From Chondrosia reniformis (taxonomy: Eukaryota > Porifera > Demospongiae > Chondrillida > Chondrillidae): a DNA stretch of 64,000 nucleotides. The translations under genes and the position numbers were made by a program. Shown piece by piece: positions 9,001 to 31,361 of this stretch. The DNA is taken from contig OX359192.1 of assembly GCA_947172415.1 (NCBI GenBank), forward strand, positions 1,180,501 to 1,244,500, written 5' to 3'. Within the stretch, counting starts at the first letter, position 1. The number at the start of each line of letters is the position of its first letter. The notes under the pieces were generated by a model. It made no database searches, was not told the origin of the DNA, and saw only the letters and a list, made by a program, of their open reading frames with translations.

Positions 9001-12000
9001 ATGTCTTCCTTCTCCTAAATGTGGACATTCAAGCAAAGTTCTCTCATGTCCGGTGCAGTGTAGGTTATTCAATAGTATACCACCCGACCCAGGACCATAA
9101 GCAGCTGAGTGTGGTGCACTAATAGCATATTGATATCCCAACTGTTTACAAACGACAGTAGCATCAGCTATATCCCAATAATCATCACAAACTGTATGCC
9201 AAGAACCATTTCTCAATATCTCAACTCTTCCTGAAAGTGCAGAAGAGGTCTCTTCACCATTCACCAATCTGACTTCAGCTAAACATACATAACATATATA
9301 TGTATACCACATAAATTAAAAGAGTGAAGTATGGTGTATATATGTACACTATCCTACTACTTACAATAGGAACATGTAACTCCAGCATCTTCACTGTGGC
9401 TATCTTCAGATGTATACCTATCATAATAGCAGCTGAAGAGACTATTCTCTGATCCAGTGCATGCTACATTGTCCATCCAGATTGGTCCCGTTCCTTGACC
9501 ATAATAAGCTGAAGTTCTTGCATATAAAGCATTTGCATATCCCAACATTCTACAAGCTACGTGAGCATCATTAATGTCCCATAGATCATCACTAATAGTA
9601 CCCCACTGATTGTCAAGGTACACCTCAACTCGACCGGAATGAGATGGAATGTAACTACTGCTACTTCCTGTTATACGAATGGCTTCCGAAAATTCTATGT
9701 ATGTATAATAAAAGAGATTTTTGAAGGATATTCTTATCTATGCATCTATCAGGCTATATATCTCTACATACATACATATAGTTATGATTACCATTATAGC
9801 AGACAACACTGGCATCTTCACTGTGATAACAGTGGTGAATACCAATACCAGAGTGACTACAGTCCAGTAATGATCTCTCATATCCTCCACATCCAAGATT
9901 ACTCAACCAGATAGGTCCAGTACCAGCTCCAAAGGCAGCCCTTGAGTAGTAATAGAGCACATTTTGATATCCAAGTTGTCTACAAACCACCTGTGCATCA
10001 CTGTAACTCCACGAGTCATCACACACAGTTCCCCATTGTCCATTGATGTATATTTCCACTCTACCAGCATGAAAGGATTTGGACTTTGGACCACCAACCA
10101 AACGAACTGAATCTATATGTTTTTAAAATTGAGACAGAATATAAATATTTGCATTTTTATTTACATAAATATATTAATGATAGGTATACAGTACATCCAT
10201 ATTGACATCTGACATATGTATGTTATAATTATGGCATTAGTATGTTATAGGTATGTCATACAGATATATATGTGTTGCAATATGCATGGGATACGTACAT
10301 ATTAACATTAATATTATATAAATAATATAATTCTTTTGCTTACTATTAGAACATATCAAACCAACATCTTCATTATGTCCACAGCCATAAGTATCACCAA
10401 GTGGTCTGTGAGTGCAGTTAAATACTGATTGCTCATATCCTGTACATCCTAATCCATTCAACCAAATTCTTCCTCTTCCTTGTCCATAGGCAGCACTTGT
10501 ATTTATAGCTTCCACATCATTATATCCCAGCTGTCCACAAACTACTTGTGCATCTCGAGTGTCAAAGTTATCATCGCAGACTGTTCCCCATTCATTGTTT
10601 GTAAAGACTTCAACTCGTCCAGACCAATAGTCAGTAAACTTGACTCCTTGTACAAGACGTATGATTTCTATTGTGAAAAGAATATTTATAACATAACATG
10701 ATATTATGTATAGGGAATATACAAGATAAGTCTGATAATGAATATAGAATAGATAAATATACGTATAACGCAGGCATTAATTTTATATTATATATATATA
10801 CAAACAAATTATGCTTACTCTTGGAGCATTGTATGAGTTCCCTGTAACAATAACTGTACCCTGTACTAGTCTGATACTGACAATCCAAAAGTGCTGTCTC
10901 ATTTCCATAGCAATTCAAGTTAGTAATTTTATAATAGTTATAATAATAATTATAATTATTTGTCAATGAACCAGTCTCATATCCAAGTTCACTGCACATC
11001 ACTTTGGCACTCTGAACACGTGAATGTAGTAAGTTTGCTCTACAGACAATGTATTGTGTGCCACTAAGAAGCACTTGTGGATAGCCAGTTATAGTTATAG
11101 TGTCTCCACTTGAGGTTGTTGTGTTGCTAGAGAGGGTAATCATACCTGTATATAATAGATATATGAAACCATATTTTCACTTATTTAGGCTGTACACACA
11201 TACATATATAAACAAACAAGATGGTAAATATGATATATTTATATATATAGGAATGAATGTGTGCATATGCAAAGGAAAAGCATGAGCATTTTCACAATGC
11301 ACTTGTATATAAGTTGAATGCACCTTATACTAAATGTATGTAGTCTATGTATAATATAACCTCATGTAAACATCATAGCTACATACAACTCTGGCTGGAT
11401 GTGCAGTATTTTATGCTTGCATGGAATATCTGAATATTTGTATATTAACAAAATGGATATACATTTTATGAATATAATTATGGAATTTAGTTCCATAATA
11501 ATATGTATAAAATCTATAAAACACCATTTCCTATATTATTATACGTAAAAGCCTATAGAGAATTAACTTAACCTAATAAATGTTTAGATGAGGAGCTGTG
11601 GATGAAGATACAGGAGTCAACTCTTTCTTTTTCTGCTCCACTGGGCCGGACAGCTGCTCCTGGGAATACCACTCATGTGCATTGTTAATACAATAGACAT
11701 TTCATGTAAAACAGCCCTTTCTCTTGAAGCATCCAAACATTTGGGTTATAAGGAACTTGCATGAAGAATTCAACTTAATACTTGGACACTCATTATTCTA
11801 AGAGTACTTTCAATTATGATGTAGTATGTAGCAAATCCCAACTTAAAGTTATATGTAATAATTCAGGAAAAAAACCTTTTAGGCAAGAAGCCCCAACATC
11901 TTGAAAATGTGTACAAGTATGGCTTAATTGACTGCAGCTAGACAGTGTTGACTCTGTTCCACTACAAGATACCCCTCTCATCCATAATCTCCCAGTTCCA

Positions 12001-17100: not shown

Positions 17101-18791
17101 ATATAGAATATAGAGATTTACAGTAACATGTTATTGCAATAACCTACCAGACCATTACTTACATGCATACCACAGTCAACAATACATTGATCATGATGTT
17201 TAGTACTGCTATCCTGAAAGAGATATTTAGCTTTGTAGTGTATACACAGCATGATATGTAAATACATGCACATACATACAGGAACTCCAGGTAGCTTTGC
17301 GGGTTCCTTTTCCCATCCATAAAGTTGGCGAACTGTATTCATATACACAAAATAACTAATCTGAGAATACACATAATACTTTGTATTGAATTAGATATAC
17401 GTACATACGTACATACAGGACTCACATAAGATCAAGAAGAAGACAAAGATTCTTATAGGGTTCCCCGATGAAGGGTGGAATTCCCAGAAACAGCTGTCTG
17501 TCCCAGTGGAGAAGAAGAAAAGTAAAGAGAAGCCTCTTATAGTATATCCTATATCCTCATCCAAAGCTCTCACCAGGTTTAGTTCCCTATATAGGCTTTT
17601 TACTCTCACTATAACATTTATATAACAGGTCATACAGTATGAAAAAAGGCCTAACTTACCTCCTTGCTGCCTTTTTGTATCTAAAAATTTTCTGACCAAG
17701 CTTATCTTCTCCATTTCTTTATAGGCCATTTGCTTCATTAAAAAGAAGATTAATACTTCTTTTAAAGTTTGTGCTTGCCCTGAATTTCCTTGAGATACTT
17801 TAAGAAAGAGAAATCGAAAGTCATCATAAATGTTGTATCTAAAATAATTGAAAAATGTCCTCTTCCACCATCTATATCTCAGCATCCTTGGGGTAAACAG
17901 TGATGGATCAATACCAGATCTTACAGCAAATCTGGCAGAGTGTCTCCAGTTCAAGTCACTGCTGTGATTCATGAAACACCAAACTAGACCTACACTGCTG
18001 AGTAGAGCAGCAACCCCAATCAGAACAAAGTCAGTCATCCAGATAGCTTTTAGAAGTTTGACACCTGGTAAGGCACATACCACTGGACTACTTTCCAATG
18101 GTAATCTAAATTCTTCCTTTTCAGAAACTAAAACTAATTTGGTACTATCTGTTTCATTCTGGATTCGAGAACAATAAAAGAACGGCTTGTACTCATAGAA
18201 GACAAAGTTATTCACCAGAATGGCTCCAACTGTAATAAGAATCTGAATGATTAGTTTTAAACAGTAACACACAAACATAGTATGGCTTCTTGTGTATTTT
18301 TTATGCAGAGAGTTAACAACGACATAATTCTTTAAAGGGAAATCTCCTGTGGTCCCCAATCTCTGACGGCTCAATAACTTTATAGATCCTTTAAAGTAGG
18401 TAAGTTTCGATTGAAAGAAAGCAATCCACAGGTAATGTGGGATTATTAGTACAGTAGCTTGACCAGCCAAATAGAGTCCTAGAAAGTCGGTAGGCGGCTT
18501 GAAGATATTGCATAAACTGCTAATGTAGTCGCTTTGAGTAATGGTAAGCTCCTTTGGAGTTAAACACTGAACGGAATCTTGCCTCGCAAAACTAAAAACA
18601 ACCTCCAGAATGGTTAAGGATAGTATAGAAGAGGCGACGTACTTTAGAGCTTGATCCCAGAAGAGTTCTAGATCCTTAGTGTCAGTTGATTGGATTAACT
18701 TGTTACTCAGTGAAATCGGTATGGTACGTGGTCTAGACACTTCTCTTTCTTCACTTGAGAGGTCTTGGGATTCCCTTCGCTTAGTTGCCAT
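14163..18791 (-). CDS. Pannexin/LRRC8-like four-membrane-segment protein with long C-terminal region
   Basis: Exons: 17660-18791, 17280-17332, 17163-17213, 16582-16626, 16437-16517, 16191-16259, 15880-15969, 15392-15544, 14678-15009, 14163-14364; all junctions keep frame and total 2,208 nt (735 aa, TAA stop). The start ATG at 18791 has A at -3 and G at +4. Predicted membrane segments at about residues 50-69, 105-126, 173-196 and 249-273. The first extracellular loop has Cys76 and Cys94 and the second Cys207 and Cys239, with a glycosylation sequon at Asn212. VVCALPGVKLLKAIW before TM4 and IYDDFRFLFL after it match the layout of the pannexin-like domain of LRRC8 and innexin/pannexin channels. 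No leucine-rich repeats follow; residues 378-735 match nothing recognised. Superfamily placement is by topology and motif, so moderate; channel activity is an inference. Confidence 0.72.
15838..15900 (-). repeat. Tandem duplication across an exon/intron boundary
   Basis: A roughly 32-35-bp segment carrying the end of the exon (GCTGAAAGATCTACTAAG) and its GTATAA donor is present twice in tandem, once ending the exon at 15880 and again just inside the intron. Confidence 0.85.
17419..17612 (-). repeat. Interspersed repeat in intron 1 of the channel-like gene
   Basis: Continues the reading frame of exon 1 past its donor (17659) and gives a misleading C-terminus (YRELNLVRALDED...). The same segment occurs at 33538-33722, 42697-42890 and 51298-51487 within TYW4 introns and in part at 11587-11674, so it is a repeat, not coding sequence. 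Confidence 0.8.
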
Positions 18792-21700
18792 TTTTATGTA
18801 GGGAATTCCCAAGGGAATTTAAGTTTAGAAGTCAATATTGAAAGCTATGTTATGTGAGTACGTAAGTCCCATTAAAATATAGTGTACGTATCTGCTACAC
18901 TTGAGTAGGAGAATTCTTTACCTAATATGTCACTCTTCATTCCACAGGTGAAGGAGAGATTACAGAAGATGGGAGCTCTGATCCCCTATAAATCTTTTAT
19001 GGTCACTTTCTATATATTATGTCCATCTTATATGCATATATGATGCAGGAAATTTTAATATTTACTCTAATATTCTTGCATGTTGTGAATACTTGGAATT
19101 GCTGAAAATATTATTTCATCATCATATTCCTCTTTCATACTTATAATGAACTAAAGGATGAATAAAATTAATATATACATATATACTTTACAGTATACCA
19201 TAAACCAGCTGGCTAACTACGTACAATCCCCTACTTATACATTACACACATTCAGATGCAGAGAATCTCCAAACTTTACATTGACTAAGTTAGTAGCTAT
19301 ATTAATTATCAGTTTTCGTTCATAAACTATAAAATGCTCTTGTAACCATATAATGATACTTATGTACTTACACTTACAACACTAAAATATATATAAACAA
19401 GGCAGCTACATATTTGATATAAGAAAAAAGGAAGTTTATATTCAAAATTAATATCACAGTGAAAATTGGAAACACAATCCAATAACTTCATCACTCAAAA
19501 CCAGAATCAGTGCATCCAACCATCTAGATGAAAATGTCTCACTTAAACAATGTACAGTATACTACATATATTAGTGATTAGAGAGAACTTGGCTAGACTG
19601 TTCTAGTTAATACTGTCATGGGCCAATAACAAAAAGAACTGTAGAGTGTCAAGCATAAGCAAGCTCAAAAACTACTCGTGCAATACCAATCCTATTACAA
19701 CTAGTATATTTCCATATATGGTAACAGTTCATAGCCACCATTCATATAGAATAAGAATAACAGCTGCACAAGTAATTGAAATTGATATGAAATCATTTGA
19801 AGAGGATATCATTATTAGCCCATTTTACAGAAATACAGAACTAAATGTACACTAAAATATTAATTTAAGGTGAGAGATATACTGTAGGAAGTTAATGTAT
19901 GATGATCATGTGATATAGGACAAATATTTCTCCTAAAATATATCAGTAAGATATACTTTAAGTCTGTAAGTGTAAATACCAAGTGCTAGCTTGATAGCTG
20001 TCCATTTGAAGGAGTTTTAGCACTAAATATAGCATAAGATTATAATGCATATTGAGATATGGGGTCTAATCAGATATACGTACGTATATCCTAAATCTCA
20101 AGGGAGACACTTTACAGAAGTCTGTAAGTGTACAAAGTCTTAGTTTGATAGTTAGTTGCATGCATGCAACTGGGTTAGAGACCATTTGGTAACTTGCATT
20201 GTATGACAGCCTCTACTTTTCTCAACAAAAAGTGTGTAATACATATATAGGTAAGGCTTCTCAATCCAATTCCATGATGTAGTGGTTAGTCTATGGTCCA
20301 TGAGCCACATTTTGAGGTCAAACATGTGAAGTAATGCTGGATGAACCAGCTCTAAGGATTCCTCTCCTGAACTATACAGTTGCTACAGTGAAGTCATAAT
20401 GCCATGGGTATTACATCACCAGGAAGCTGCCTTCTTTTTTTATTATTGTCTAGTTATACCAGTATTCTTTATTGTAAAAACCCTAATAAAACATTTTGCA
20501 ATGCATGAAACTAGTGCAACAGCTATGTGAAGTTTTATAGGTTTTGCCTTGCTTGGCAATGCATAAATATTATATATACTATTATAGTAAAATAAAAAAT
20601 GCCCTCCCTCCCGCATGATTTTTGGCACCTGGAGGGGGGGACGGGAAACTAAAATGTAATTTGGAGTAGCCTAACTGTTACATCAAATGATAGCTGAAAA
20701 AATTAATTAAATAGATGATGAAGGGATTTCTTCTAACTGAACCAAGATGGTTCATCTTTAGTATGGGATTCGCATGGGATATATAGGGTTGGGATATGTA
20801 CGTATGTATTGTATAGGCTGATTCTTTGATAATTGGGATATGAATTCTGTAGGTTCAAATATATATGCAGCTTATCACTTCAGGAATCAACCAGCAAACT
20901 TACCGTGTAAGTTCTGTTTGCCTTCCTCAACTTGTACAGTTACAGCTATTATAAGTGTGACTTTAGTGAAGTGATAGACAACAGAAACTGTAGACATGTA
21001 CACATAAAACATGTGCAAGTTTAATTATTAGATATGATGTCAGTTCCTTATATGTATAGTTCTATATAGTAGATTCCTGCTAAAAGATGGAGAAGAGAAA
21101 TGATCAGCCAATAAACTTTTACAATTAAGAACCTGAGGAAAATGTCAATAACATGTTAAACTTGTATATGAAAATGAAGACACAGGATATAACTTTGACT
21201 ACATGATCTGGGATCCATTTTCCCTGAGACCTATGTTATGTACGTATACCCTCGAAGATTATACTGCACATGTACAGGTAGTCAACTGTACCCCGAATGC
21301 AATCTCCATAGCTTCATGCATGGTAATAAAAAACAGTAAACACATGTACAGGCCTACATATATAGGGATACTCTTGATCACATAAGGGGATGTTGTTGGC
21401 ACATATTATGCACTTTAAGAGGATTTGGTCTCTTATATACATAATTTACATCTTCCACAATTCACGATTAAACCATATTTTAAACATATATAAACATTTG
21501 TATAAATTTTGTACAGTATTCTGTAATTTTTACTACTGTATACATCAGTAAACGTGACTGACATTGAGAGACATTGAGATGATATCACATATGCATATAG
21601 GATACATATACAGTAGCTTATATTATGGTAGGAGGAGGTGGATACTAGTGATAAGTAGATGCTTCCATGATTTTTTGCCAATTGGTCATATTTTAGTAAC

Positions 21701-21914: not shown

Positions 21915-22766
21915 CTATTCTCTTACGGGACCAATAGTACCAGGTGGTCCAATGGTATAAATTGGTCTACAGGAACAGGTACCCTCATGCCAGTAGTATC
22001 CTGGACGGCATTTCTGAGGATATCTGCATTGGCACCTACAGGTGGCCTCATTCCAATAGTGTTTGGGACTGCAAGAGAGCACAAATGGGCACTTGCATGC
22101 ACAGTCAATACGGCTGAACACTTTTCCTCTTGGGCAACTCAGTGGTACCTCGCAACAAAAGCACTGACCCTTAGCATAGGGGAATACTGGAATAAGTTCT
22201 AGAGTTGATCTTGGTGCTACATCATATCTAGGTAGTGACTCTCTCCACTGGCAGTAGGTATCCCTCACTTTTACCTCGCTGACATGGTTTGGACAACTGT
22301 CCTTGCAGTTGCACTCATTAAATTCAAAATCCTGACATTGCTTGCATCTGCACTCCAAATGGTCCTCATACCTGATGGTTCTGAAACCCAGGATCTGAAA
22401 GTGTGGATGCAATCTAACGGCAAAGACATATCTACTCTGAGCACTGACTCTAGCAGGTACACATTCCAGTTCTTTGCACCTAAGTCCATTGCATGTGCTT
22501 GTAATAAGCCAGCCATTGCTGGTGGGGTCCCAGTAATAGATGCCACTGTCTTGTTTTAGGAGCTTGTAGGGACCATCTTGACAGGTAGCTGGTATGGCAG
22601 GTCTGACAAAGGACCTTCCATCAAAGATGACAGCAGGTGTTCTGCCTCCATTGACAGCACTTTTAAGTGATTCAATCTCTGCATCACTTGGACCTTGTGG
22701 AGCAGATGGCTGAGAGAGGGCTCCAAGGAAAAGAGCTGAGAGCAGGATTATTGTCTTGAGTTCCAT
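21915..22766 (-). CDS. Secreted PDGF/VEGF-like cystine-knot protein with CXC repeats, paralogue 1
   Basis: Intronless, 283 aa. Signal peptide MELKTIILLSALFLGALS. The core has cysteines at 62, 92, 97, 102, 139 and 141, in the order and near the spacing of the six knot cysteines of PDGF/VEGF factors, with YEDHLECRC at the place of the family's H-x-x-C-x-C end. The two cysteines that join VEGF chains covalently have no counterpart. From about residue 144 on comes a cysteine-rich tail whose repeats (CACKCPFVLSC, CRCQCRYPQKC) resemble the CXCXC repeats following the VEGF-C/D growth-factor domain. Expected extracellular; receptor binding is an inference. TATA-like box 44 bp upstream of the ATG. Another cystine-knot family is possible. 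Confidence 0.72.
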   Translation of the reverse strand: MELKTIILLSALFLGALSQPSAPQGPSDAEIESLKSAVNGGRTPAVIFDGRSFVRPAIPATCQDGPYKLLKQDSGIYYWDPTSNGWLITSTCNGLRCKELECVPARVSAQSRYVFAVRLHPHFQILGFRTIRYEDHLECRCKQCQDFEFNECNCKDSCPNHVSEVKVRDTYCQWRESLPRYDVAPRSTLELIPVFPYAKGQCFCCEVPLSCPRGKVFSRIDCACKCPFVLSCSPKHYWNEATCRCQCRYPQKCRPGYYWHEGTCSCRPIYTIGPPGTIGPVRE

Positions 22767-22809
22767 TTTCTTACGATTGAGTTAGTTGTTTTTTACTTCA
22801 CAAAATCCT

Positions 22810-22818
22810 CTATATATA
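22810..22818 (-). promoter_or_regulatory. TATA-like box of growth-factor-like paralogue 1
   Basis: TATATATAG on the minus strand, 44-52 bp upstream of the ATG, nearly the same distance as in paralogues 2 and 3. Inferred from position only. Confidence 0.45.
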
Positions 22819-23760
22819 CTGTATTAGACAGGAAATGCATGAGTGTTAGTTTGTAATCCTTTGGAAGTTTGTGTGTACTAGTATTGTCTTAGACTTAATG
22901 ATTCAGATTTATACACATATAGAGACACCAAATACATACTGAAATCTATATATATGATCTAGATCATGGCTTGTGATCATTTGGAAGTTTGTGTGATGTA
23001 ATAAGAAGCTGACTGCTGACTCTTGCAATTTATAATTAAGTGTAATAAAATAATAGTTCCACACACAAAGTGGTGTGACTTTGGCTTATCTTTATATTGC
23101 AAGAAACACCTTAAGACAAACACCTTATTCATGCAGTCTATATGTATTATAACGGGAACCTTCTCTTGATGGATCAGGACGTACCCAGAAGTGGTCTGCT
23201 GCCTCTAGCACAGGCAGTATATACACAAAGTAAGCTACACAATCCCATGCAATAGCTGACATGTATATTATATCCATAAAAGGGCATTTTGATATAAGAT
23301 AGTTCCAATTGCATAATACCTATTAATTCACTTATACATAATACATGTGTATAAGTTAATACATAATATGATCATTAAACAGGACAATGCATGTTATGCA
23401 ATGTATACTATGCTTATTATAACTACCTCATTGCCATATATATATGGAAAAGGACATACTTAGATGATTCATTTCATTAATTATATATGTCTTTATCATG
23501 TGACACTGTGTTAATTAAGTGCCTTGCTGTGTTATGGTTTAAGCTGTACAATGTAATAACTCTATACTGATATCTAGATCAATGCATTAAATGTTAATAT
23601 CAATGGCTGTATGCCTGAGCAGTTATACGTATGTCTATATAATACATGTACATCCACCTTGTATATAGAGACTACGTAGTGGACAACTTATCTGTATATA
23701 TGTATGATTTATCTTTTGAAAATCAGCAACAGATTTTGGTAAATCGTAACTGCATGATCA

Positions 23761-24043
23761 AATGTTCAAATATGTAGCTTATCACTTCAGGAATCAACCA
23801 GCAAAAGTGTAAGTTCTGTTTGCCTTCCTCAACTTGTACAGTTAGAGCTATTATAAGTGTGACTTTAGTGAAGTGATAGACAACAGAAACTGTAGACATG
23901 TACATTATCTATTCATTAAAGGATGTGTTAGTATATTACAGCTGAATTATGTGATATCAGTTCCTACGAATACTTACATGTATAGTAGTGAATTCCTGCT
24001 TAAGGATGGAGAGGAGAAATGATCAGCCAATAAACTGTTACAA
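23761..24043. repeat. Direct repeat flanking the first growth-factor-like gene, copy 2
   Basis: Partner of 20853-21121, same orientation, with small indels (for example the ACTTACCGTG stretch is shorter here). Confidence 0.85.
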
Positions 24044-24402
24044 GAGGTTGTTACCACGCCTGATATTTATATTGGTTGGTTCAGAACAAAGAAGGTATTA
24101 ACCATTTAATGTGTTGTGCATTAAATCTATTGTAATTCATTTATCTGTTAATCAGTTTACCTTTCTCAACCTATAGTTCAGTAATAATAATAAAGTGTGG
24201 CAAACATAAAAATGTGATTTTATTTAAGTGATAGACACCAAAGGATGTACCTATAAATATAATGTAAGTTCCTATGAAAATTTACGTATATAGTATATAT
24301 GTACTGTATAATATATATACCTATAGTGCTAATTATCTCGTTACCAGGAAGATGTGGGTTTCTGACTTCAGTCACTTATTTTATTGTGGGTTTACCTATA
24401 TA

Positions 24403-24498
24403 GCTAACCCATGCTAACTAACCTGCTAACCTGCTAAACCTGCTAAACCTACTAAACCTGCTAAACCTGCTAAACTAACCTGCTAGCTAACCCATGCC
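24403..24498. repeat. Short-unit minisatellite (CTAAACCTG)n
   Basis: Tandem CTAACCTG/CTAAACCTG units, about nine to ten, bounded by the same TAGCTAACCCATGC-like flank on both sides. Confidence 0.85.
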
Positions 24499-24619
24499 AG
24501 CTGCCATCTATGCTGCCATTGATTAAGTGGCTCATATTTGGACTTTTAAAATTAGCTTCTCAATTTTAAACTCCAAGGCAAGTATATACAGTACAAGTTA
24601 CAATATACTAAGGTAATCA

Positions 24620-24683
24620 TATACATATACATACACATGTATACATACATACATACACATACATACACATACATATACATATA
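24620..24683. repeat. CATA/CACATA microsatellite
   Basis: Interrupted run of CATA and CACATA units. Confidence 0.85.
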
Positions 24684-26010
24684 TAGCAAGCTGCATTGAC
24701 CAATTAAATCACTTGAAAATGCACCATATATGCGTAATACCCAGTTATGAAATATTTTGCAACTAATTCAAAATAAAATTTCAATGAAAAATTCATCTAC
24801 GTATATACGTATATATACGTATACATATTACCATTCACATTTTTGATCAGAGCTATATACAAACTTAAAATGATGCAGTTTGATTATGAATTAGAAAATT
24901 GTTGCAGCTGATTTTCAATTGAATGTAAATAGAGCAAATGTAAATGTTTGAAAACTTAAAGGCAATAATTTATCTTGACATATTTTCTCATAATTTCTAA
25001 CTTTTAATCCTTATAAGAAAGTCCAATTTAAAGATATATGTGGTAGTTAATACAGACAATCTTATCTATACAGTACCAATAAAGGAAAGCCATAAACCTA
25101 TAGGTTTTACACTAACAGATAATAAGTAAGATCATTAAGTCCATTTTAAGGTCAAAAGCAGCTATAAGGCTTCCTGTCCCAAAAGTTGTTACAATGATGT
25201 CATAATACCATGGTGTTTAGGTGTTAGTGTACTAAACTTCCTTCCTCCTTTGGTTACTGCCCTGTAACAGAGGAACTGTGAAGTCTTAAGTGGTGTTCAT
25301 GTTGAGTAAATATTGAATATATAGAAATGTGTTTTTATGTTAACTTTGTCCTCTAAGCCTAAAGGTCCTTGCAGAGTATAACAAATAGAGCTATACATAT
25401 ACATATTGTACATTTTTCTCTTTCCACACACCATTTTCATCTCCAACAAAACTGAAAAGTTTCCATAGCAACCAATTCCATGGCAAAAAGTCGAATAAAG
25501 ATCCATAACTCTGGTATAGTTAGGGTAGTGATATAGTTAGCTAGTTAGGGTAGTGGCACATTTCTTGATCATATTCAGAGATATATATCTCTATATAGAT
25601 TGTTTGGACTTACCTTACTTTAACCGTACATCTCAAGTTAAACATTATTATTAAACAATATTTGATTGAATTTAACAATATATATCAATTTGTATATAGA
25701 AGTGTGACATTATGACATTGTGTACTTACTCTTAGCCTAAGATGACTTTATAGCTTATAAAAGTAAAACAATTGAGAATAGTTTGTGGTATATTACTGTC
25801 ATAGTTGCAGCTGTTGGATTTGATTATTACTCAATCTGTGGTGTATTGTGACTTGCCTAGTCAGCGAAATAGCAAAGTGATTAACAGTCATTGAATTGAG
25901 CTTACAGAATTAGCACGATAATACTTTGTGAGTCTAGTAAAGTGGGCATAGTATATAAGTAATGCTATAGCTATATAATGAGATTAATACTCCTGTAATG
26001 ACTGAAATGT

Positions 26011-26937
26011 TCATTTCTCTTCAAATTCTGGTGGCCATGGCCTAGGCCCAATGGTACCTGGTGGCCCAATAGTGATAAGATATGGCTTGCAGCGACAGGT
26101 AGCCTCATGCCAGTAGTATCCTGGACGGCATCTCTGAGGATATCTGCATTGGCACTTGCAGGCTGCCTCATTCCAAAAATGCAAAGAGGAACATTTGTAG
26201 ACTCTCTTGCATTTACATCTACAATCCACTTCACTCCAGTAATGATTGGGACTGCAAGAGAGCACAAATGGGCACTTGCATGCACAGTCAATACGGCTGA
26301 ACACTTTTCCTCTTGGGCAGCTCACTGGTACCTCGCAACAGAAGCACACACCTTTAGCATAGGAGAATTTTGGTAGAAGAATTGGTGGTACTACATCATA
26401 TCTAGGTACTGGCTCTCTCCACTGGCAGTAGGTATCCCTCACTTTTACCTCGCTGACATGGTTTGGACAACTGTCCTTGCAGGTGCAATCATTATAATCA
26501 AGATCCTTACATTGCTGGCATCTGCACTCCAAATGGTCCTCATACCTGATGGTTTTGAAACCCAGGATCTGAAAGTGTGGATACATTCTGACGGCAAACA
26601 CATACATTGTCTGAACACTGACACTGGCGGCTACACATTCTAGTTCTTTGCACCTAAGTCCATTGCATGTGCTTGTAATAAGCCAAGCATTGCTCTTGGG
26701 TTCCCAGTAATAGATGCCACTGTCTTGTTTTAGGAGCTTGTAGGGACCATCTTGACAGGTAGCTGGTATAACAGGACTGACAAAGGACCTTCCATCAAAG
26801 ATGACAGCAGGAGTTCTGCCTCCATTGACAGCACTCTTAAGTGCTTCAATATCTGCATCGCTGGGACCGGGACCTTCAGAAGTAGAAAGAACTCCAAGGA
26901 AGAGAGATGAGATCAGGATTACTGTCCTGAAATCCAT
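26011..26937 (-). CDS. Secreted PDGF/VEGF-like cystine-knot protein with CXC repeats, paralogue 2
   Basis: Intronless, 308 aa, signal peptide MDFRTVILISSLFLGVLS. Same knot cysteines as paralogue 1 (ATCQDGPYKLL, STCNGLRCKELEC, YEDHLECRCQQC). The cysteine-rich tail has one more repeat unit (VDCRCKCKRVYKCSSLHFWN) than paralogue 1. It ends in a short proline-rich tail (GPRPWPPEFEEK). The first 200 bp upstream is nearly the same as that of paralogue 3, which shows recent duplication. Role as a secreted ligand is inferred from the fold pattern. Confidence 0.72.
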   Translation of the reverse strand: MDFRTVILISSLFLGVLSTSEGPGPSDADIEALKSAVNGGRTPAVIFDGRSFVSPVIPATCQDGPYKLLKQDSGIYYWEPKSNAWLITSTCNGLRCKELECVAASVSVQTMYVFAVRMYPHFQILGFKTIRYEDHLECRCQQCKDLDYNDCTCKDSCPNHVSEVKVRDTYCQWREPVPRYDVVPPILLPKFSYAKGVCFCCEVPVSCPRGKVFSRIDCACKCPFVLSCSPNHYWSEVDCRCKCKRVYKCSSLHFWNEAACKCQCRYPQRCRPGYYWHEATCRCKPYLITIGPPGTIGPRPWPPEFEEK

Positions 26938-26981
26938 TTTCTTTCTATTTGGTTAACTGTGTTTTACCTCACACTCTCTCT

Positions 26982-26990
26982 TAAATATAT
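26982..26990 (-). promoter_or_regulatory. TATA-like box of growth-factor-like paralogue 2
   Basis: ATATATTTA on the minus strand, 45-53 bp upstream of the ATG; identical sequence and spacing in paralogue 3. Confidence 0.45.
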
Positions 26991-27893
26991 AGGAGATAGG
27001 AGCTAGGAAATACATGATTACAGAGTGCTATATACATATTATTCTGTAACATCTTTGAAGACTGTTCAAATAGACATATCTTTTGAGGAGTATATATAAT
27101 CTCTATAACTTATTCGGTAAAAGTAGGGTTATAAATTTGGAGTGCCTCCCCTTCAGTAAAAGATGCGGTGTCCCACAAGGACTATCAAGAAGCCGCAAGA
27201 AGTTACAAATGTATCTCGATACCATTTGCTCTATATGTGCATTCAGTTTAACTATTTAAATATAGAAGATGCAGATAATAGAACAGCCAAACATGCGTAT
27301 ATAGCGGCTGACACTATAATATGCTATTTCAATCCATTTACATTCTATAAAGAGATGAAACATGGTATGGGGGAATGTAAAGTCAAAATTTGAAAACAAT
27401 TTAGCATGCTCGTATGTGATTGCAAAGAAGAAATATAAGAATTATGAGTGTACTGCAGCTGGAAGATATATACTAAAATCCAACTAGCCAGCTGCAGGGG
27501 TAATATTATTGAGATTATTATAGTAAAACAATCACTCCATTTTGTTACAATAACTGAATTCATTTAAGATAGTGTACATGTACGTACGTATAATAGCTGA
27601 CCCTGCCACTGCTTATGTCTGTGAGATAAGGTTTCTTGTACACTAATAAAATAGTTTATCAATTTTGAACACTACATATGTATACACAATATTAACATGA
27701 CATGCTTAAATCACCTTCTGTTAAGATATATGAGGTATATGATCATGATTTAATTAAAATTCATCTGAAAATATAGGTTTTCTCAATGATCATGATGTGT
27801 GGTAATGTACGTACTTACACGTACTTCTATTATTGACAGTTTTTGATTCTATTCAAAGCTTATATACAGATCTTGAAAATATTAATTTTTTAA

Positions 27894-28232
27894 GGCCATG
27901 CAAATTTGATTCACAGTTTATCATCCAGCAGTTTAGAAAATAGCATGAGGGAGGGAGGTCATTTTTCATTATTCATTATTAGAAATGCAATCAGTCATCA
28001 GACATACAAAACTCACTGAGTTGAAATTTTAATAAAGAAACAATAGTAAGGTGTACATATTAAAGTAGAACACACAGTATTAAAGTTGAATATTTATTAT
28101 AAATGAGCACAGAAGCAAGTTGTAACCAGAAATCATTGGCACTTATTTATATAATGAAAAATGAAGTTGGAAGGCGTGCCCAAAAAAGCATGCGGGCGGG
28201 GATGATAAACTGAGAATCGAATTTGCCTGGCC
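27894..28232. mobile_element. MITE with about 33-bp inverted ends and TAA target duplication
   Basis: The left end GGCCATGCAAATTTGATTCA... and the complement of the right end GGCCAGGCAAATTCGATTCT... agree over about 33 bp, both running into CAGTTTATCATCC. TAA lies directly outside both ends. No coding capacity. Length about 340 bp; the 3-bp TWA-type duplication suggests a Harbinger-related element. Confidence 0.8.
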
Positions 28233-28513
28233 TAAGAAAGAGAGTTAATTTTCTCGAATAAATGCATGTAGGAAGTTAATGATATATGCGTATATTTGTT
28301 TCTTGCCTTACTTTTCACATACATCCTAATTCAAACATTGTGAAGCAAAATTGAAGTGAGCAATATATATGTTTTAGAAGTAGTACAATAAAACTGAATG
28401 AGTCTTACACAATAGGACATCTAGTAATAAGTAATTGCTTATAGCTATATAATGGAATTCAAAGTTAGTACTCCTGTAATGACTGAAATGATTATTTCTC
28501 TGGTGACCATGGC

Positions 28514-29491
28514 CTAGGCAATAGGACCAGTTGGTGGCCATGGCCTAACGGTAATTGGACCAGTTGGTGGCCATGGCTTGATAGTAATAGGATATTTGGT
28601 GCCTGGTGGCCCAATGGTGATAAGATACGGCTTGCAGCGACAGGTAGCCTCATGCCAGTAGTATCCAGGACGGCATTTCTGAGGATATTTGCATTCACAC
28701 TGACAGGTTGCCTCATTCCAACGTTGCAAAAAGGAACATTTGTAGACACTCTTGCATTTACATCTACAATCCACTTCACTCCAGTAATGATTGGGACTGC
28801 AAGAGAGCACAAATGGGCACTTGCACTCACAGTTGATACGGCTGAACACTTTTCCTCTTGGGCAACTCAGTGGTACCTCGCAACAGAAGCACTGACCCTT
28901 AGCATAGGGGAACACTGGAATAAGTTCTAGAGTTGATCTTGGTGCTACAACATATCTAGGTAGTGACTCGTTCCACTGGCAGTAGGTATCCTTCACTTTT
29001 ACCTCGCTGACATGGTTTGGACAACTGTCCTTGCAGTTGCACTCATTAAATTTAAAATCCTTACATTGCTTGCATCTGCACTCCAAATGGTCCTCATACT
29101 TGATGGTTCTGAAACCCAGGATCTGAAAGTGTGGATACATTCTGACGGCAAACACATACATTGTCTGAACACTGACACTGGCGGCTACACATTCCAGTTC
29201 TTTGCACCTAAGTCCATTGCATGTGCTTGTAATAAGCCAAGCATTGCTCTTGGGTTCCCAGTAATAGATGCCACTGTCTTGTTTTAGGAGCTTGTAGGGA
29301 CCATCTTGACAGGTAGCTGGTATGGCAGGTCTGACAAAGGACCTTCCATCAAAGGCTACAGCAGGAGTTCTGCCTCCATCAATAGCATTTCTAAGTGCTT
29401 CAATGTCTGCATCGCTGGGACCGGGACCTTCAGAAGTAGAAAGAACTCCAAGGAAGAGAGATGAGATCAGGATTACTGTCCTGAAATCCAT
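28514..29491 (-). CDS. Secreted PDGF/VEGF-like cystine-knot protein with CXC repeats, paralogue 3
   Basis: Intronless, 325 aa, same signal peptide as paralogue 2. Knot cysteines conserved (ATCQDGPYKLL, STCNGLRCKELEC, YEDHLECRCKQC). The middle part (PRSTLELIPVFPYAKGQCFC) follows paralogue 1, while both ends follow paralogue 2. It has the extra CXC unit and a C-terminal tail in which PWPPTGPI occurs twice through a 33-bp tandem duplication. Secreted; ligand role inferred. Confidence 0.72.
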   Translation of the reverse strand: MDFRTVILISSLFLGVLSTSEGPGPSDADIEALRNAIDGGRTPAVAFDGRSFVRPAIPATCQDGPYKLLKQDSGIYYWEPKSNAWLITSTCNGLRCKELECVAASVSVQTMYVFAVRMYPHFQILGFRTIKYEDHLECRCKQCKDFKFNECNCKDSCPNHVSEVKVKDTYCQWNESLPRYVVAPRSTLELIPVFPYAKGQCFCCEVPLSCPRGKVFSRINCECKCPFVLSCSPNHYWSEVDCRCKCKSVYKCSFLQRWNEATCQCECKYPQKCRPGYYWHEATCRCKPYLITIGPPGTKYPITIKPWPPTGPITVRPWPPTGPIA

Positions 29492-31361
29492 TTTCTTTCT
29501 ATTTGGTTAGCTGTGTTTTGCCTCACTCTCTCTCTTAAATATATAGGAGATAGGAGATAGGAAATACATGATTACAAATTGCTATATATATACGTACATA
29601 CTACATAATATTATTACTTTGCCTCATCTTTTAAGGCTATTCAAATAGATATATCTTTCGAGGAGTGCAAATGGTCTCTATATTGTGCATTCAGTTCAAT
29701 TAATGTTAATCTGTATCTCTCCCTTGCCACAGATCAAGCATTAGACAGCTATTTTGTCTTCTTCAGTATTATATATGGTATTTGATGGATAACATGAGTG
29801 ACCCATCTTTCAATTAGTATACTCTTGAGCTAGGAAAACTTGTGGTTTTCCTTAACAGTAGATAAGGGAACAGCCAGCATATATAGCGGCTGACACTAAA
29901 ATGTGCTATTACAATCCATTTGCATTCTTTAAAGAGATGGAGTATTTCATGGTACGGGGAAAATGCAGAGTCGAATTTGAAAATACTTAGTTTGTTGCAA
30001 GAAAAAATGCAAACTTTTAGGCTTACTGGGATATTTATAAACTCCAACAAACCAGAAAATGTTACTACTGAGTTTGATGAAAAAGTCACTCCTTTTTGTT
30101 ATATGCTATATGTAAATTCATTAAGGAAGTGTACATGTACGTATATAATATCACAGTAAACTACATACATAGTATGATACAATGAAGGACAATTCAGTAC
30201 CAATAAAGCCCTATATACATATATACAACACATTTTCAAGAGCGCTTATTCTCCAATCCCCTGTATATAATATATTGCTCCTATACGTATGTAAGTATAT
30301 AGTTTATTCTACGTACCTACGTATGTATACGTACATGTTGTATATATATGGTAGCATCATAGAAATAGATAGGTATGAATTTAGATAAGCTTTAATGAGT
30401 CTATAACTTCTACATGCTAACAACCTGTTACCATTCCACATTTGTACAAGTACAGTTACTTCCACCCTCTCAGTGTAGGAAGGGTCAGATTACAACTTCT
30501 CACATGTACAGTGTCCATTGACCTATAAACTTCGAGGTCAGACATGTAATAACACACTGGATAGACCAGAGATAGGGCTTCTTTACTTGACTTCCATGTA
30601 GGTAGCACCTAATCACAACTATTATAACACTTAAATTTGAGGTATATAATTTGCACTATATATATATATTGTGACTTGCACTGTATATACAAATGTTGTG
30701 GTAAACAAGTGAATAGCTACATAATGGATTATGGCTAAACATGAATTTGGTCCCCAGCTAGGATGACAGTTTGATCACATGCAATTGGGTATATTCTGTG
30801 AGTGATCACTCCCTTTTCATTTCCTATTATGTATACAAATGTGTAGGTCTTTTCCTCCACATGATTTTATAGACAGCTTAGGAACTTTAAAACCACATGC
30901 ACAGTTGTATAATAGACATAGTATTCTGGAACATAAGCAACATATATGTACATATGTAATAAACAGGTTTTGATATTTTCACATGGAGATCTTTATTAAC
31001 ATGACTACTCCCATAATATATGTACCTATTAAATTCTAAAACTAAAATTACATAATTGGAAATGGGTATATAATAGGTATCTGTGAATGCATGATGTGAC
31101 AGCAAGTTTTAGCTTTGTTCATTTGCTTTAAATAGATCTCTTGGGTGACCAAACTCACACTACATGGGCATATGCAGATTGAACTATGGATTTTTCAAAG
31201 GTTAACTAATGAGTATAATATTCCATATACATCCCCAGGTAGTTTTTGAATTTATCAGTTCAATATTGATTCTGTGCAGTCTGAGATGCTTATTAAAAGT
31301 ACAATATGGTCTCATGCCTTGTATTATTGATTGTTTGCATTAGTAACATATATACTATAGA
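29492..31361. other. Intergenic region between paralogue 3 and the TYW4 array
   Basis: 29870-29990 repeats the segment at 27300-27400 (TATAGCGGCTGACACTA...), i.e. the duplicated 5' flank of paralogues 2 and 3. Remainder AT-rich, nothing recognised. Confidence 0.5.
29536..29544 (-). promoter_or_regulatory. TATA-like box of growth-factor-like paralogue 3
   Basis: ATATATTTA, 45-53 bp upstream of the ATG, as in paralogue 2. Confidence 0.45.

Follow-up and report, generated by a model that had tools for sequence, protein, structure and literature searches.

Probable divergent PDGF/VEGF-like genes of VEGF-C-type layout, tandemly duplicated in the demosponge Chondrosia reniformis

Did ligands of the PDGF/VEGF type exist before sponges parted from other animals? 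The question is raised by three neighbouring genes at positions 21915-29491 of a 64,000-nucleotide stretch of DNA (assembly GCA_947172415.1, contig OX359192.1, positions 1,180,501 to 1,244,500 of the forward strand), which is referred to here as the window and which belongs to C4, one of the 15 contigs that make up a genome of 117,379,552 bases. A preliminary description of the window had read them as PDGF/VEGF-like cystine-knot genes and had made their bearing on the age of VEGF-type ligands conditional on the organism being a sponge; it is the demosponge Chondrosia reniformis. In two surveys, Cnidaria are the least complex animals with an identified PDGF/VEGF family (Rauniyar et al. 2023; PMC10328876), and PDGF is placed in the cnidarian-bilaterian ancestor (Roch and Sherwood 2014; PMC4079206). 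Both date the family after sponges, and sponge genes are therefore worth testing. No sponge PDGF/VEGF ligand appeared in titles or abstract openings among the literature matches listed, most subscription journals lying outside that scope.

Our reading, to which we assign a probability of about 0.78, is that these demosponge genes encode a secreted, divergent PDGF/VEGF-like cystine-knot protein of VEGF-C-type architecture, in a family that grew by tandem duplication. If this is true, a sponge family with the layout of VEGF-C would push the origin of these ligands to an earlier point, would be in line with the idea that the ancestral factor bore a BR3P tail (PMC10328876), and would raise the question of what role and receptor such a ligand has in an animal free of vessels.

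Encoded proteins and their similarity to PDGF and VEGF

The genes and the parts of their products are as follows.

21915..22766, minus strand: copy 1, intronless open reading frame (ORF), 283 amino acids; signal-peptide-like start, propeptide, PDGF/VEGF-like domain, spacer, BR3P tail
22713..22766, minus strand: copy 1, signal-peptide-like residues 1-18; charged start and hydrophobic core, read from the sequence, no signal-peptide program
22344..22583, minus strand: copy 1, six-cysteine PDGF/VEGF-like domain, residues 62-141 (C62 to C141); HLECRC at 22344-22361
21969..22163, minus strand: copy 1, BR3P/CXCXC tail, residues 202-266; PF03128 14.6 bits, cut-off 15
26011..26937, minus strand: copy 2, intronless ORF, 308 amino acids; layout as copy 1, tail with one more repeat
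26518..26757, minus strand: copy 2, six-cysteine PDGF/VEGF-like domain, residues 61-140; PF00341 E 0.0019, 18.9 bits
26089..26346, minus strand: copy 2, BR3P tail, residues 198-283
28514..29491, minus strand: copy 3, intronless ORF, 325 amino acids; layout as copy 1
29072..29311, minus strand: copy 3, six-cysteine PDGF/VEGF-like domain, residues 61-140; PF00341 E 0.0014, 19.3 bits
28634..28891, minus strand: copy 3, BR3P tail, residues 201-286

All three ORFs are intact and open from ATG to stop, as the preliminary description had it, but the total of such genes found in the genome by whole-genome protein search is four, not three. The fourth full-length copy (P0004, 284 amino acids, also intronless) lies on contig C8, its aligned part sharing 72% identity with copy 2. 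Each of the four proteins consists of a hydrophobic, signal-peptide-like start, about 40 residues, the six-cysteine domain, a spacer containing additional cysteines, and C-X10-C-X-C-X-C repeats that form the tail. The six knot cysteines stand in order and close with C5-x-C6 in 4/4 copies; in copy 1 they occupy residues 62, 92, 97, 102, 139 and 141, exactly the positions first given. The domain ends in E-D-H-L-E-C-R-C in the three window copies, again as first described, and in D-D-H-L-E-C-R-C in the C8 copy.

A Pfam match to PDGF/VEGF was obtained only with the isolated domain of 100 amino acids, a query chosen after the full-length scan had failed. With it, PF00341 (PDGF) was the sole family returned, for 3/4 copies (E 0.0014, 0.0019 and 0.0064). 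The full-length scan gave only the CXCXC repeat for copy 1 (14.6 bits against a cut-off of 15) and nothing for the C8 copy, and NCBIfam matched 0/4 proteins. When copy 1 was searched against the PDB with phmmer, all five distinct sequences at E of 10 or below were PDGF-A or PDGF-B (E 0.038-0.13); a profile of the four domains likewise placed PDGF-B or PDGF-A in the best five of six positions (E 0.016-0.054), followed by MASP-1 at E 1.2. It is important to note that the five PDB matches are constructs of just two proteins, and that the window copies are closely related, so that matches of the three are not independent.

Profile-profile comparison by hhalign with seven human PDGF/VEGF members, a set holding no invertebrate ones, scored 47.6 (E 2.3e-8 for a single comparison), a value reached by 0/1,000 column shuffles with cysteines held fixed (best 24.5) and by 0/500 full shuffles (best 26.2). 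The sponge domain scored 37.7 against the PDGF pair and 33.4 against the VEGF group, and VEGF against PDGF scored 75.6; the sponge domain is therefore clearly farther from either known branch than the two are from each other. Between C4 and C6, 40 residues align with PDGF-A/B without a gap, copy 1 sharing 15 identities with PDGF-A, cysteines included, and for copies 1 and 4 the real scores are equalled by only 4-16 shuffles in 200,000 with the cysteines fixed. PDGF-A and PDGF-B provide the best sequence matches among solved structures, and they share with the sponge domain the 36-residue C4-C5 gap and the EDHL/EEHL stretch before C5.

We also ran a PDGF/VEGF hidden Markov model (HMM) over 928 ORFs of the fetched genome DNA, where the four genes scored E 1e-5 to 4.7e-5 and the next ORF 0.36. 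Taken together, these comparisons support a similarity of the domain to PDGF/VEGF that is family-specific and goes beyond the cysteines. Homology of the sponge domain to PDGF/VEGF is likely on this sequence similarity, resting mainly on its C-terminal half. A whole-genome search with PF00341 and PF03128 returned no match, and its controls were also silent, hence it shows no absence; relatives were not confirmed in bacterial or archaeal contigs, searched with two peptide patterns, or in viral contigs.

The tail, the copies and competing explanations

The CXC-rich tail had been likened to that of VEGF-C/D, and this comparison held. BR3P repeats lie C-terminal to the domain in 4/4 copies, each tail comprising two to three complete C-X10-C-X-C-X-C repeats and one ending at C-X-C. 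Aligned with the tail of human VEGF-C, copies 2 and 3 beat 2,000/2,000 cysteine-fixed shuffles, and copy 1 and the C8 copy were reached by 15/2,000 and 18/2,000, respectively. The order of signal peptide, propeptide, six-cysteine domain and C-X10-C-X-C-X-C tail is that of VEGF-C, VEGF-D and the cnidarian VEGFs, and the combination of domain and tail matches VEGF-C/D and the cnidarian factors of PMC10328876. Mammalian PDGFs, in contrast, are described as having no BR3P tail (PMC10328876).

The tail alone is not diagnostic, because long arrays of the same repeat occur in other proteins of the genome. Two such frames are a 662-residue BR3P/CXCXC array on contig C1 (L008:154-2142, minus strand; PF03128 E 2.6e-17) and a 363-residue array on contig C2 (L007:991-2082, plus strand; PF03128 E 1e-13). 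Both are probably sources or relatives of the tail repeats; they share the repeat with the tails of the four genes, but are long arrays, and no PDGF/VEGF-like domain was found in the frames fetched. The genes could accordingly encode a silk-like BR3P/CXCXC matrix protein with a disulfide-rich structural or matrix-binding role, in which the six-cysteine domain came to resemble PDGF/VEGF by convergence. The match of the tails to these arrays favours such a protein, as does the judgement of Rauniyar et al. that all 11 of their sponge BLAST hits were false positives, with BR3P or BR3P-like proteins accounting for five (PMC10328876). The domain freed of its tail nevertheless matches only PDGF/VEGF in Pfam, PDGF chains take ranks 1-5 in the PDB, and the shuffles fall short of the real scores. 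Moreover, the PDGF/VEGF HMM gives negative scores to all 18 other ORFs of the fetched DNA that carry three or more BR3P-like motifs, and the tail is therefore not the cause of the HMM match. We regard convergence in a matrix protein as unlikely, while it survives better than the alternatives that follow.

Sponges do have cystine-knot hormones, secreted proteins with features of glycoprotein hormones, bursicon and BMP antagonists (PMC4079206), and the domain could belong to that group or to a TGF-beta or NGF type, acting through other receptors. Foldseek rows obtained with a poor structural model, all at E of at least 1, mix VEGF, IL-17, activin, NGF and PDGF chains with unrelated proteins, and to that extent suit such an assignment. 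The list was headed by VEGF-A at E 1.0, which we did not use as evidence given the quality of the model. Since the negative controls are single sequences and the positive set is a profile, the scores of single templates provide the like-for-like comparison. By hhalign, these were 36.4 for PDGF-A, 29.9 for PDGF-B, 27.2 for VEGF-B, 22.5 for VEGF-C and 21.0 for VEGF-A, against 20.4 for hCG-alpha, 17.9 for Norrin, 15.1 for BMP2 and 10.8 for NGF, these last four being the cystine-knot controls. PDGF-A, PDGF-B and VEGF-B exceed all four controls, VEGF-C and VEGF-A barely so, and membership of another cystine-knot group appears quite improbable.

That the genes are under selection follows from their divergence. 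When the C8 copy is compared with the three window copies in turn, the ratio of nonsynonymous to synonymous substitution rates (dN/dS) is 0.11, 0.19 and 0.19 in the domain region and 0.19-0.32 over the whole gene; within the cluster, where changes are few, the corresponding values are 0.47-0.62 and 0.39-0.75. These values show the domain to be under purifying selection and the four copies to be selected genes. Copies 2 and 3, with 81% and 82% identity to copy 1, respectively, are the most recent duplicates. The motif H-(L/F)-E-C-x-C occurs three times in the window against 0.01 expected, and together with the dN/dS of the domain this is not chance. Genome-wide it occurs 42 times, against 23 for a backwards-pattern control, and four of these occurrences are the known genes; no matching domain was present at the 20 sites read out of the 38 remaining (18 unread). 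A single-domain query of the genome returned the four genes and one fragment at E 0.39.

None of the four copies has an intron, against a mean of 7.20 exons per transcript in the published annotation (PMC12181767), as might be expected had the sponge lineage gained a PDGF/VEGF gene from another animal at a later time, by horizontal transfer, leaving the age of the family unaffected; yet retroposition inside the lineage would likewise remove introns, similarity to the known members compared is low, and four copies on two chromosomes with a synonymous divergence (dS) of 0.70-0.78 between the C8 copy and the cluster argue for long residence, so that transfer is the least probable explanation of all.

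Points against a PDGF/VEGF ligand, and its possible mode of action

A number of observations weigh against the PDGF/VEGF-like reading. The profile check proposed in the preliminary description singled out PF00341, but at 17.2-19.3 bits, below the curated cut-off of 27; the isolated domain of copy 1 has no PF00341 match, nor does any of the four full-length proteins. Likeness is concentrated in the C-terminal half (domain residues 51-95 by Pfam, 35-96 by hhalign), PlGF (20.0) and VEGF-D (14.5) score no better than the best control, hCG-alpha, and in the ungapped block against PDGF-A copies 2 and 3 score 17 and 13, compared with 28 and 25 for copies 1 and 4, the two that the shuffle test covered. 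AlphaFold models had mean predicted local distance difference test (pLDDT) values of 38.4 and 43.6 (three full-length sequences, four domains; three to four close sequences each), and VIA-align of an AlphaFold model found no match. Strands in these low-confidence models do fall roughly where PDGF has its two hairpins.

The spacing of the cysteines, originally called near-canonical, is so only in part. The gaps from C1 to C6 of copy 1 in the knot register are 29, 4, 4, 36 and 1, compared with 30, 3, 6, 33 and 1 in VEGF-A and 32, 3, 6, 36 and 1 in PDGF-A/B. Of these, C4-C5 and C5-C6 lie within the spacing seen among the seven human members (30-32, 3, 6, 32-36, 1), but C1-C2, C2-C3 and C3-C4 depart from it by 1, 1 and 2 residues, only human members being compared; relative to VEGF-C/D, C2-C3 is one residue longer and C3-C4 two shorter. 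The core P-x-C-V-x(3)-R-C-x-G-C-C (a PROSITE-type signature) is present in 0/4 copies, the region reading T-C-N-G-L-R-C, in which C-N-G-L-R-C replaces C-x-G-C-C such that the knot-ring glycine is kept in C-N-G and the C-C pair is split. In the knot register there is no equivalent of the inter-chain cysteines C51 and C60 of VEGF-A, and the hhalign register puts C92 and C97 on VEGF C51 and C57, leaving VEGF C60 and C61 unmatched. The two registers thus disagree on which cysteines are C2 and C3, hhalign preferring the latter one, with C92 on the first inter-chain cysteine. Inter-chain cysteines are often missing in cnidarian, fly and worm members too (PMC10328876), and in this respect the sponge proteins resemble the cnidarian VEGFs; unlike these (by their published description) and VEGF-C/D, the sponge genes have no C-x-G-C-C core, no introns and a weak match to the family profile.

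The family assignment made at the outset is thus partly supported, by similarity beyond the cysteines and by the VEGF-C/D-type tail; the inter-chain cysteines appear absent, and the PF00341 cut-off is not reached. Given that the C-x-G-C-C core, human-range spacing, the inter-chain cysteines and a score at the Pfam cut-off are all lacking, and that the structural models are of low confidence, we do not file the genes as certified members; by their sequences they are probably a divergent PDGF/VEGF relative with VEGF-C architecture.

In our working model, disulfides C62-C102, C92-C139 and C97-C141 would make the knot, and two chains would associate although the inter-chain disulfides typical of the family are lacking. 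Like the tail of VEGF-C, the BR3P tail may anchor or mask the factor, here in the mesohyl matrix; once released, the domain would signal via a cell-surface receptor, probably not a standard split-kinase VEGFR/PDGFR. We see even odds for the fuller proposition that this is a true sponge PDGF/VEGF-type ligand of VEGF-C architecture, that the family is older than the sponge split, and that the earliest such ligand, probably a non-covalent dimer retained in the matrix by its BR3P tail and acting on another receptor, worked where there were no vessels and no recognisable VEGFR/PDGFR.

The search for VEGFR/PDGFR-type receptor kinases in the same genome, also suggested at the outset, adds a further point on the contrary side: no such split-kinase immunoglobulin (Ig) receptor was recognised in three partial searches, in which 134/1,104, 150/821 and 113/624 candidates were scored. 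Since only part of the candidates was scored, absence of the receptor is not shown. A VEGFR2 kinase query gave 98 matches of 26-56% identity, nearly all over the kinase C-lobe. Published accounts list the VEGFR and PDGFR kinase families as having emerged in vertebrates (PMC8662651) and report a VEGF-R1 for Halichondria panicea on the basis of BLAST and a tree (PMC9798719).

Two other receptor-like kinase frames were encountered. Contig C14 (L054:1176-8880, minus strand) carries what is probably a gene for a receptor tyrosine kinase. About six of its exons are Ig-like, three of them profile-supported and the others recognised by eye; it also has a transmembrane exon, and its kinase has H-G-D at the HRD motif. 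The C-lobe of this kinase matched mostly insulin/IGF1-receptor, Trk, ALK, ROR1 and MuSK chains in the PDB, with a top row labelled EGFR and no VEGFR, PDGFR or FGFR in the best 60 of 848 rows; we take the receptor to be PTK7/ROR-like, judging by eye. The second, a 566-residue frame on contig C12 (L025), carries a kringle-like domain and, beyond a transmembrane stretch, a tyrosine kinase, a layout that is ROR/MuSK-like by eye.

Upstream sequences and other features

Sequence reading alone places a TATA-like element before each window copy.

22811..22818, minus strand: TATA-like TATATATA, beginning 52 bases upstream of the copy 1 ATG
26981..26991, minus strand: TATA-like TATATATTTAA, beginning 54 bases upstream of the copy 2 ATG
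29535..29545, minus strand: TATA-like TATATATTTAA, beginning 54 bases upstream of the copy 3 ATG

The C8 copy is preceded by CTATAAAAAGG. Elsewhere in the window, a 475-residue frame with several hydrophobic stretches (17391-18818, minus strand) matches Innexin weakly (PF00876, E 0.0018, 18 bits, cut-off 25). Innexins are not known from sponges, and the frame would deserve a look if it were a divergent relative of large-pore channels. A further frame (10237-10776, minus strand) carries a scavenger receptor cysteine-rich domain (PF00530, E 1e-27). The first 9,900 of the 17,451 bases of contig C15 read as an animal mitochondrial genome, in which COX1, COX2, ATP6, cytochrome b and NAD genes were recognised by eye.

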